Source: Acinetobacter kanungonis
GTDB taxonomy: Bacteria; Pseudomonadota; Gammaproteobacteria; Pseudomonadales; Moraxellaceae
Length of the DNA stretch: 64,000 nucleotides
Assembly: GCF_009939195.1 (NCBI RefSeq)
Contig: NZ_JAACKC010000004.1
Location: 1-64,000, forward strand
Direction of reading: 5' to 3'
In this document: one piece after another, positions 45,209-47,668 of the stretch
Layout: every line of letters starts with the position of its first letter
How positions within the stretch are numbered: the first letter of the stretch is position 1
Program-made: the position numbers and the translations under genes
Notes under the pieces: model-generated
The model's database searches: none
What the model was told of the DNA's origin: nothing
Seen by the model: the letters and a program-made list of their open reading frames with translations, nothing else

Positions 45209-45565
45209 TTAAGAAAAATCGAGACCTTTTTCAAAACCTTTTAATTCATAACGCGCCATCGCCAAGTTTGATTTAGAGCGATCAAGAACCAAATACAAGA
45301 ATAAAGTCTCATTGGTATCTAATGGACGGATCAAGTGGTATTGCTTGCCTAAAGTAATCAAAATATCTTCAATATCGTCATTAAGTTGCAAAGCTTTCGC
45401 CACTTTGCGCTTAGAACGAATTACTTCTGTATTACCAGCCGCAGCAAGTTCTAAATCTACGCCATTCCCCTGAGTAGCTAAAGCAAGACCACTGTCGCTG
45501 TCTACCAGCGCTGCTGCTACAAAACCATCTAAACTTGTTAAAGCATCTAGACTAACACGTGCCAT
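45209..45565 (-). CDS. Roadblock/LC7-like protein, distal gene of GTPase operon
   Basis: A 118-residue alpha/beta protein: MARVSLDALTSLDGFVAAAL VDSDSGLALA matches the first helix and strand of the Roadblock/LC7 fold, which binds Ras-like GTPases of the MglA type. The helix AAAGNTEVIRSKRKVAKALQ and strand DILITLGKQYHLIRPL follow as expected. Last gene of the four-gene minus-strand operon starting with the GTPase at 47668. A role as GTPase partner is inferred from fold and context. Confidence 0.8.
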   Translation of the reverse strand: MARVSLDALTSLDGFVAAALVDSDSGLALATQGNGVDLELAAAGNTEVIRSKRKVAKALQLNDDIEDILITLGKQYHLIRPLDTNETLFLYLVLDRSKSNLAMARYELKGFEKGLDFS

Positions 45566-45625
45566 TTCTTGTTTCCTCTTGATATGGGAATTACCCCGTT
45601 AAAATTATTGCAAGGTGCAGATTTT

Positions 45626-46612
45626 TTATAGGCCAAGTTTTTTACGTAATTTTCCAATAAAGCTACGCAATTTGTGACCTTGACCAGATTCTACTTGTTT
45701 TGTATCTTCCTGAAACTTCACTTCATTTTGATCTACAAAACGCCCCAATTGCAGTAGAACAGCACAAGATACAAAATTCAATATCCGATCATGACTTAAA
45801 TCCAAAAACTGTTTTACATCGTTTATTTTTGCACCATGCGAGAAACAAGCTGCCATTTTTAGGTATTCTTTACGCTTCAGATCACGTTCAAATTGTGGCC
45901 AAATCTCTAGTTTAAAATTTTGCTTCAGCGCTACATGAGGTAATTCCAAAGCGGTAGATTGATTGACCACTTTCCATAACCATGCTCTTAAATCATATAC
46001 TTCTTTGTTCTGCATGACTTCTTGCACAAATTGAGCGGTCGCATAAGTCTGATTCAGCGTTGCATTAAATTGAATGCTTTTACCCGCTTCTACCCAAACA
46101 CGCTCAGTCCGCGTATCAATCAATGCCAGAAAGCCTTGTGCATCATACAACTGAATAAATCCATTTCGAGGTGTGAAAATTTCAGTCATCACCCGTTCAA
46201 GCGAAACTTCGGCTTGGGGCTTATAGGACGGTGATATGACTGTTCTACTCGGCTCTATCTTCGGCATGGCAAACTTCATAGCGCCTTCAGGCAATAACTT
46301 ATCAGACAACCATTCATGTAAATGTTCTAAATCTGAAAAAGGGTAAAATAACTGATCACCAATAATACGCCCCGCATGTTCAACTTTTTTGACGAGACGC
46401 AAATACGCAATGCGTTGATCATTGAGCACCTTTTGAATGCCTGGTGCATTGAAGAACACATCATTGACCAGCAATAAATCAATTTTATTTTCTGCCAGAT
46501 TGACCCATTTCACCTGAATTGAAGACGGAAGTGCGAGTAATACCTGCGTTTTAATCTGATCTAATGTACTTAGACTTAATCCGAATACTGCAATATTTAA
46601 GATGTTCTTCAT
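45626..46612 (-). CDS. Uncharacterised 328-aa protein of the GTPase operon
   Basis: The ATG at 46610-46612 gives MKNILNIAVFGLSLSTLDQI. The first 110 residues look like a Rossmann or receiver-like alpha/beta fold (KIDLLLVNDVFF, RIAYLRLV). The middle (FIQLYDAQGFLALIDTRTER) and helical C-terminus are unassigned, ending in a basic tail (KLRSFIGKLRKKLGL). It lies between two Roadblock genes, so a scaffold or effector role for the GTPase is possible. That is inference. Confidence 0.7.
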   Translation of the reverse strand: MKNILNIAVFGLSLSTLDQIKTQVLLALPSSIQVKWVNLAENKIDLLLVNDVFFNAPGIQKVLNDQRIAYLRLVKKVEHAGRIIGDQLFYPFSDLEHLHEWLSDKLLPEGAMKFAMPKIEPSRTVISPSYKPQAEVSLERVMTEIFTPRNGFIQLYDAQGFLALIDTRTERVWVEAGKSIQFNATLNQTYATAQFVQEVMQNKEVYDLRAWLWKVVNQSTALELPHVALKQNFKLEIWPQFERDLKRKEYLKMAACFSHGAKINDVKQFLDLSHDRILNFVSCAVLLQLGRFVDQNEVKFQEDTKQVESGQGHKLRSFIGKLRKKLGL

Positions 46613-46694
46613 TGCCAATTAACCATAATTTTCAAGATTTAAAAACACATCCATGCACTACTGAACCCATCTATGGGTACATCTTTCATCTCAT

Positions 46695-47114
46695 TCAAAT
46701 AGATGCCAGTGCGAAATCCATTTGAGCCAACGCTTCACTTAATTTTTGGAAGTGATAGCGCATTTGCCCAATTAACAAATCATTGTCCGTCACTGCAATT
46801 AACACCATTGGAAATTGAGGATGGTTCACCGTAGATAGAAACACTTTTCCATTTTCCGCATCCAGCGTGATGGCTTGACAACCGACCAATTGAATTTCAG
46901 AAATAAACGCTGCAACCATCGCCATAATGGAACTACTGACTGCTGCAATTTTGCCGTGATTATCCAAGTTCTTTTTTGAAGCTGTTGCCAACTCAAAGCC
47001 ATAGGAAGAACACAGCATGACAAATTCAATTCCACTGATTTCATGCAAGAAGTTTTGCACTTGCACACGGCTTCGCTCTTTCATTGCTTGCGGTATTTCA
47101 CGTGAAAACGACAT
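46695..47114 (-). CDS. Roadblock/LC7-like protein, proximal
   Basis: The ATG at 47112-47114 with AAGGGGAG upstream gives MSFSREIPQAMKERSRVQVQ, 139 residues; the frame is open 12 codons further without a ribosome binding site. NFLHEISGIEFVMLCSSYGF followed by ELATAS is the Roadblock beta-alpha core, with a later strand MVLIAVTDNDLLIGQMRYHF. In Myxococcus the Roadblock protein MglB is the GTPase-activating partner of MglA. The gene begins 11 bases after the GTPase stop, so the pair is co-expressed. Confidence 0.8.
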   Translation of the reverse strand: MSFSREIPQAMKERSRVQVQNFLHEISGIEFVMLCSSYGFELATASKKNLDNHGKIAAVSSSIMAMVAAFISEIQLVGCQAITLDAENGKVFLSTVNHPQFPMVLIAVTDNDLLIGQMRYHFQKLSEALAQMDFALASI

Positions 47115-47125
47115 GACTACTCCCC

Positions 47126-47668
47126 TTAATTCACAGCCAGCGTTTGACATTCAAGCATGGCAATCAAGGATTCGATTAGCAGCAAAACATCATCTTTTAC
47201 ACGTGCATCTACTGCAAAAACAGGATAGTTTTTATGATGGATCTGCATCCAGTCTCGATAAACCTTGAGCTTTAAGTCATCGACCTGATCCATATGAGTA
47301 ATCCCAATCACAATATTGGAACCATATTTTTCAAATGCACTTAAATAGAATTCGAGATCTAGCAATCGTTCTGCACGACTATGGTCAATTAACACCACAA
47401 TGCCAATCGCACCTTTACAGACAATTGACCACATAAAATCGAAACGGTCTTGCCCTGGGGTGCCATAGAGACCTATCAGGGTGCCATCCTCTAAAGCAAT
47501 TTCGCCATAATCGATGCCGACCGTCGTCAAAAGCTTGGAGTGTGCTTCAATATCGGTATTGACCGCTTCAGTGCTAATGACATTTACGTCAGAGATGGCC
47601 TTAATTGCAGCCGACTTCCCTGCTCCCATCGTCCCGCCAAAAACAATTTTGTACTGTTGCAAGATCAT
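47126..47668 (-). CDS. Small Ras-like GTPase (MglA-like group)
   Basis: A 180-residue P-loop GTPase. G1 is GTMGAGKS at residues 12-19, G3 is YGTPGQDRF at 68-76 (Gly-Thr-Pro-Gly in place of DTAGQ), and G4 is THMD at 124-127 (instead of NKxD). There is no membrane or lipidation signal. Bacterial GTPases of this kind usually pair with Roadblock proteins, as here. They set cell polarity or control pili and gliding in Myxococcus. A strong CRP-like palindrome lies 19 bases upstream of the ATG and overlaps a TATAAT. Confidence 0.85.
   Translation of the reverse strand: MILQQYKIVFGGTMGAGKSAAIKAISDVNVISTEAVNTDIEAHSKLLTTVGIDYGEIALEDGTLIGLYGTPGQDRFDFMWSIVCKGAIGIVVLIDHSRAERLLDLEFYLSAFEKYGSNIVIGITHMDQVDDLKLKVYRDWMQIHHKNYPVFAVDARVKDDVLLLIESLIAMLECQTLAVN

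Follow-up and report, generated by a model that had tools for sequence, protein, structure and literature searches.

What might a Ras-like GTPase control when it is encoded together with two Roadblock proteins and a partner that resembles a response regulator? This question is raised by a minus-strand locus of Acinetobacter kanungonis, located at positions 45209–47668 of the window analysed here, i.e., the first 64,000 nucleotides of contig NZ_JAACKC010000004.1 (assembly GCF_009939195.1). Based on the open reading frames of the window, four intact genes follow one another in the order GTPase, RB1 (a Roadblock protein), P3, and P4. The original prediction had described a single minus-strand set including a GTPase, two Roadblock proteins and a 328-residue protein, and all four frames were found open at this place. 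It had further proposed that two Roadblock proteins and a dedicated third protein constitute a distinct system. While the four-protein GTPase/Roadblock module stands, its distinctness is ruled out by the description of the Group 3 MglA systems, for which the same partner set has already been reported (PMC4316618). In toto, the parts of the module had been correctly seen and its novelty was overrated.

Relationship to the Group 3 MglA systems

The Group 3 MglA proteins were catalogued in 2014 by Wuichet and Sogaard-Andersen (PMC4316618). A Group 3 system, as described there, includes the GTPase, one or two MglB proteins, and a further protein whose N-terminus is receiver-like and whose C-terminus resembles a winged helix. 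The motif GTPGQ is given for MglA Groups 2–5, and a G4 motif often lacking lysine, together with the G5 motif DAR, for Groups 2 and 3. The assignment of the window operon to the Group 3 MglA-type modules is well supported by its motifs and its partner set. The Ras-like, MglA-type GTPase (47126..47668, minus strand; 180 amino acids) includes the P-loop at residues 11–19, TT in G2 (48–49), GTPGQ (69–73), THMD (124–127), and DAR (154–156), and matches ATP_bind_1 in Pfam with 41.3 bits (cut-off 27). The lysine of the G4 consensus [NT]KxD is missing here, and a threonine, not an arginine, stands beside the G2 threonine. The N-terminus of its partner P3 is receiver-like, and two MglB-type proteins are present, RB1 being recognized through the Pfam score of its paralogue and P4 through its predicted fold. 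The G3 and G4 motifs had been singled out as unusual, which is correct in comparison with Ras but not within the MglA family, where they are normal according to the 2014 catalogue.

Both Thr48 and Thr49 are invariant across the 19 aligned GTPase rows, and an arginine finger is absent. The G3 motif reads G[TA]PGQ in 10 of 11 aligned rows, the exception being L046. At this locus (L046:8515-10108, genome G022), an open P3 frame adjoins the GTPase without GTPGQ, which is possibly a pseudo-GTPase judging from its sequence, and the genome has no match to RB or P4. The nearest named GTPase is that of Acinetobacter sp. A7.4 (97% identity). In a tree which included rows from an Eikenella (Neisseriaceae) and Methylococcaceae, and no reference sequences of other MglA groups, the window copy falls inside a supported clade of Acinetobacter rows.

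Several known systems share features with this operon. The Group 3 MglA systems of beta- and gamma-proteobacteria, including the mgl genes of Snodgrassella (PMC11112851), have in common with it GTPGQ, a G4 without lysine, DAR, a partner with a receiver-like part and, in the window, a putative helix-turn-helix-like part, and one or two MglB per GTPase. In contrast to Group 3 generally, the aligned P3 proteins of Moraxellaceae lack the receiver Asp and the Lys-Pro, and in relatives outside this family the set is often flanked by extra genes, whose products are of about 240 and 215 amino acids or are PAS or phosphonate-binding-like proteins. The Group 1 system of Myxococcus (MglA/MglB/RomR-RomX/RomY/MglC) likewise employs more than one partner of Roadblock or GTPase-activating protein (GAP) type as well as a receiver-domain partner; it acts on pili and polarity. 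The Group 1 MglA of Myxococcus and Thermus has TVPGQ and an intrinsic arginine finger, where the window GTPase has GTPGQ and TT. Moreover, according to the catalogue (PMC4316618), Group 1 mglA is encoded away from its response-regulator partners, unlike the GTPase gene of the window. The actinobacterial conservons (Group 2, CvnA-D) are also four-gene switches with a GTPase, a Roadblock protein and a protein of unknown function. They include a CvnA-type histidine kinase, none of which was seen by eye among the open reading frames at 42–52 kb; in its stead, the window operon has a receiver-like protein and one more Roadblock.

P3 is the near-obligate partner of the GTPase

Across 119 evenly sampled Acinetobacter genomes, in which the neighbourhood was taken as the 4 kb around a GTPase and remnants were included, matches to the GTPase, P3, P4, and RB were present in 76, 75, 75, and 73 genomes, respectively. 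P3 lies in the neighbourhood of the GTPase at 120 of 124 places, as compared with 88 for RB and 81 for P4. All three partners are found at 78 places, P3 with RB at 10, P3 with P4 at 3, only P3 at 29, and none at 4. The genes are therefore associated far beyond chance, given their presence in 73–76 of the 119 genomes and the 78 of 124 GTPase places with all four, and the near-obligate partner of the GTPase is P3, not a Roadblock protein. The 129 P4 places comprise 82 near a GTPase, 12 near RB only, and 35 where P4 is alone. Pairs of RB and P4 away from any GTPase occur 12 times, once each in 12 genomes, and every one of these genomes also holds a GTPase with P3 and no Roadblock nearby (lists compared by eye; G043 and G072 inspected directly), as expected for one module divided in two. 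A further three genomes (G026, G098, and G102) contain P4 with no GTPase match. Based on the partner counts at the GTPase places and on the split genomes, the core of the module is the GTPase with P3, and the Roadblock proteins are a second, separable part.

The genome of the window contains a second set on contig C11, in the order P4-P3-GTPase-RB, behind rplM, rpsI, sspA, sspB, and the gene of a 217-residue protein (gene names assigned by eye). The two copies share 81% amino acid identity in P4, 56% in the GTPase, 42% in RB, and 26% in P3. From these uneven identities we infer that P4 may be shared and constrained, with P3 specialising in each copy. A protein of about 220 residues (MAFDLVQYF...) is encoded between sspB and the second module copy at L042:8125-8778, at L043:11904-12569, and, as counterparts, at L048 and L056; at the former two loci it has a hydrophobic C-terminus, and the L042 protein has no Pfam or NCBIfam match. 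In G000 (C11), G051, G065, and G107, some 40 kb separate pilT from the second copy, which probably reflects old synteny.

Predicted architecture of P3

P3 (45626..46612, minus strand; 328 amino acids from its ATG) has no Pfam match above the cut-off, and a Foldseek search with the whole protein gave no match at E <= 0.001. In the AlphaFold model (mean predicted local distance difference test, pLDDT, 86.5; predicted template modelling score, pTM, 0.58), the protein consists of a receiver-like N-terminal domain, a middle part, a putative helix-turn-helix-like part, a linker, and a cationic C-terminal helix. Structural alignment of P3 returned mostly receiver domains, and a receiver-like fold is predicted for residues 1–108 (46289..46612, minus strand). 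The phosphorylation site is missing from this domain, which has Asn50 at the place of the phospho-acceptor and Tyr-Pro instead of Lys-Pro. Among the aligned P3 sequences, the acceptor Asp is present in 1 of 36 from Moraxellaceae versus 28 of 29 from outside the family, and Lys/Arg-Pro in 0 of 36 versus 29 of 29. Helices at residues 247–258, 263–270, and 274–286, followed by a strand at 290–292, follow one another in a helix-turn-helix-like order, and P3 of the paralogous locus L042 matches HTH_23 with 14.1 bits, below the cut-off of 24.6.

The basic tail claimed for the 328-residue protein is present as FIGKLRKKLGL, part of a conserved cationic helix at residues 312–328 (45629..45679, minus strand); the isoelectric point of P3 is 9.1, while P4 and RB1 are acidic (4.9 and 5.7). 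The model places a helix at residues 312–325, the pLDDT of this block being 62–69. Comparable tails are GFLAKIRRKLGL in Psychrobacter, GLFSRLLKRLLGG in Thiothrix, and GLLSRILSTLLG in Methylovulum. A cationic-tail pattern, which was composed only after the tails had been inspected, recognizes 91 of 97 P3 proteins, as compared with 48 of the 1474 other proteins encoded at these loci and with 65 of 1940 tails after shuffling. The best 11-residue segment of the tail has a mean net charge of +3.3 in P3 versus +0.3. Under a strict amphipathicity cut (moment >= 0.75 and charge >= +2), 22 of 97 P3 tails are retained versus 17 of 1474 others; the tail of the window P3 (moment 0.59, charge +5) is not among them.

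The tail of P3 is likely to be either a membrane anchor or a helix which docks onto a Roadblock protein. In MinD, a C-terminal helix targets the protein to the membrane. The tail of P3 is similar to this helix in being C-terminal, cationic, and placed after a linker; the MinD helix, however, sits on a nucleotide-binding protein and the P3 tail on a predicted receiver-like protein. The C-terminal helix of the receiver protein RomR binds MglC with nanomolar affinity (PMC12719032). The consulted portion of the 2014 catalogue mentions conserved N- and C-terminal regions of the Group 3 partner and no tail of this kind (PMC4316618).

The two Roadblock proteins

RB1 (46695..47114, minus strand; 139 amino acids) is an MglB-like Roadblock/LC7 protein which matches Robl_LC7 with 18.9 bits, under the cut-off of 23, while its paralogue in the same genome reaches 35.1 bits and passes it. 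P4 (45209..45565, minus strand; 118 amino acids) has no match in Pfam above the cut-off, and a profile built from aligned P4 sequences gave nothing convincing when compared with a single RB sequence. The AlphaFold model of P4 (mean pLDDT 85.5, pTM 0.79) has 107 Foldseek matches in the PDB at E <= 0.001, the best of which is MglB in its complex with MglA (3t12_C; template modelling score 0.78, root-mean-square deviation 2.0, 17% identity). P4 is thus predicted to adopt a Roadblock fold, which rules out an unrelated protein, and in public records some of its relatives are called 'roadblock/LC7 domain-containing protein' or similar. The claim of two Roadblock proteins is well supported by the paralogue of RB1 and by the solved MglB structures which best match the P4 model. 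Among the three partners of the GTPase, P4 shows the strongest conservation. Tandem P4 copies are present at L052:8598-9472, away from any GTPase, and at L054:7486-8363.

An Asp-Gly pair is singled out in MglB of Groups 2–5 in the catalogue (PMC4316618), and neither RB1 nor P4 of the window has one. RB1 reads SSYGFEL, whereas relatives such as L062 read SSDGFEL, and both the second copy (L042) and L062 have DGFEL at this place. The replacement of Asp by Tyr was seen only in the window RB1 among the 72 RB-type sequences listed, of which three rows (L054, L108, and L125) had caught another stretch and leave the position unread. Elsewhere the RB gene itself is broken or gave no match. It is disrupted by five stops in G011, the window-type GTPase of G051 and that of G107 have no RB match next to them, and there is no tblastn match to RB in A. 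tandoii (L064). All four of these places have the GTPase, P3, and P4, and in G051 they share 84%, 83%, and 97% identity, respectively, with the window set.

Operon layout

The intergenic spacing along the operon is 11, 82, and 60 bases. Gene order and conservation suggest that the four genes form one transcript. P4 is followed by a terminator-like hairpin of 13 pairs and then TTATTT (45162..45191, minus strand), for which its place and not its number speaks, as one such hairpin was observed versus 1.8 expected in shuffled sequences. A promoter scan was uninformative (7 sites versus 12.5 in shuffles). No paper on the GTPase/Roadblock module of Acinetobacter was found in the open-access literature, although the supplementary tables of 2014 may list these genes. 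The near-obligacy of P3, its cationic tail, the phosphosite split between families, and the Tyr of RB1 would seem to be absent from that literature as well.

Evidence bearing on function

In Snodgrassella, the substitution G78R in the Group 3 orphan MglB-3 leads to denser dendrites on 0.5% agar and to an advantage in honeybees, not bumblebees (PMC11112851); this work is the sole functional report on Group 3 which we found in the open-access literature. For Myxococcus, it is reported that MglA of M. xanthus stimulates type IV pili (PMC7519303), that MglA binds the three response regulators AglZ, FrzS, and RomR (PMC4316618), and that RomY stimulates the GAP activity of MglB, a precedent for a Roadblock GAP helper (PMC9481161).

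Across 229 genomes sampled class-wide, with the GTPase counted at E <= 1e-15 and overlaps read by eye, PilT is present in 39 of 39 GTPase-bearing genomes versus 193 of 229 overall (Fisher p 0.001), and FlhA in 29 of 39 versus 121 of 229 (p 0.004). Since 10 of the 39 lack FlhA and none lacks PilT, pili fit better than flagella, although genome size may explain this. Control of pili or polarity, as suggested in the original prediction, is thus plausible and the best guess available, the leads being MglB-3 of Snodgrassella and the class-wide co-occurrence with PilT. Two observations weigh against it. The class-wide link to PilT is weak because FlhA is enriched too, and 43 of the 119 Acinetobacter genomes have PilT and no GTPase match. 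PilT is present in all 119 of these genomes, which makes co-occurrence with pili uninformative within the genus.

Some neighbouring genes of relatives were also recorded. The product of L141:2566-3177 begins like a type IV pilin (FTLVEIAIVLVIIGLL, by eye), and its gene is some 2 kb away from that of MglB in a Thiotrichaceae relative; it is the only pilus-like gene seen near any relative of the operon. Upstream of the operon, a bactofilin gene (PF04519, 76–88 bits) is encoded on the other strand at L114:5130-5525, L127:4910-5281, L132:4594-4941, and L140:4902-5252, in Leucothrix, Thiothrix and a Thiotrichaceae metagenome-assembled genome. In Myxococcus, a bactofilin (BacP) and a GTPase (SofG) act together on pili. 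As a general partner, bactofilin was rejected, being beside the operon at only 4 of 80 named loci and without a match in the genome of the window. A larger relative cluster is located beside dnaA- and gyrB-like genes at L047:6346-14029 (G031) and includes the GTPase, three P3-like receiver/helix-turn-helix proteins, three Roadblock-like proteins (one above the Pfam cut-off), a ferredoxin-globin-like protein, and a fusion of an ABC-ATPase with a phosphatase; apart from the Roadblock above the cut-off, names were given by eye.

Proposed mechanism and alternatives

We tentatively propose, at somewhat less than an even chance, that a Group 3 MglA-type nucleotide switch acts through P3, a degenerate response-regulator-like protein, at the membrane, thereby steering type IV pili or polarity. 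The gene set, the GTPase motifs, the absent phosphosite and the conserved tail of P3, and the linkage between GTPase and P3 are seen in the sequence itself; the receiver-like fold of P3 and the Roadblock fold of P4 are predictions from models. The GTPase would cycle between GTP and GDP, and a Roadblock dimer would stimulate hydrolysis as MglB does for MglA. P4, as the second Roadblock, might tune hydrolysis, for which RomY and MglC of Myxococcus offer a comparison. In its GTP form the GTPase would bind P3, the tail of which would bind the membrane, and the output would be the placement or activity of pili. In an extended version, which we consider improbable as a whole, the location of a response regulator is under the control of a Ras-like GTPase: the P3 proteins of Moraxellaceae would have shed their phosphosite, so that the GTP state has taken over from phosphorylation as the input. 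P3 would shuttle between the membrane, by means of its tail, and a pilus or DNA target, the fast-evolving P3 giving each copy its own output and the near-invariant P4 being shared by all.

The tail could instead dock onto a Roadblock protein, most likely P4, as the RomR helix does on MglC. This is rather doubtful but has several points in its favour, i.e., the nanomolar RomR-MglC precedent (PMC12719032), the pairing of a basic P3 with acidic P4 and RB1, and genome G022, which has no RB or P4 match and whose P3 tail (L046) misses the cationic pattern. On the other hand, five other P3 proteins also miss the pattern, acidic isoelectric points are common among bacterial proteins, and tails such as GLFSRLLKRLLGG resemble the membrane-targeting helices of MinD type. 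That P3 is a transcription regulator, freed by the state of the GTPase to bind DNA through its winged helix, was proposed for Group 3 from Phyre2 folds (PMC4316618). It would agree with the helix-turn-helix-like order in the model and the weak HTH_23 match of the L042 protein. This match is, however, under the cut-off, helix-turn-helix folds also serve protein binding, and the conserved cationic tail is no less suited to binding a membrane or a partner, so that we regard direct regulation of transcription as unlikely.

A role in sensing redox, energy or a ligand, instead of steering pili, is suggested by the PAS and phosphonate-binding-like neighbours in L126 and, by clustering, in relatives, by the ABC-ATPase/phosphatase fusion in L139, and by the ferredoxin-globin-like protein and similar fusion of L047. 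None of these neighbour types was seen by eye beside the window operon, and the single functional study located (PMC11112851) speaks for motility, which leaves sensing decidedly unlikely. Least probable among these alternatives is that the window copy is decaying and the C11 copy beside the sspA-sspB-like genes does the work. The Tyr of RB1 and the broken or unmatched RB of G011, G051, G107, and L064 would be consistent with decay, but all four window frames are open, and G051, which has no RB match, has well-conserved copies of the GTPase, P3, and P4.

With regard to the steering of pili or polarity by a GTPase-P3 switch, the points of most interest for the bench are the tail of P3, the phosphosite missing from the Acinetobacter P3, and the altered RB1. 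Acinetobacter itself offers a natural experiment, with up to three GTPase matches per genome, split GTPase-P3 and RB-P4 halves, copies without a working Roadblock protein, and many species without the module. If the input of P3 has indeed moved from phosphorylation to the GTPase, this family would show how two common types of bacterial switch swap places.
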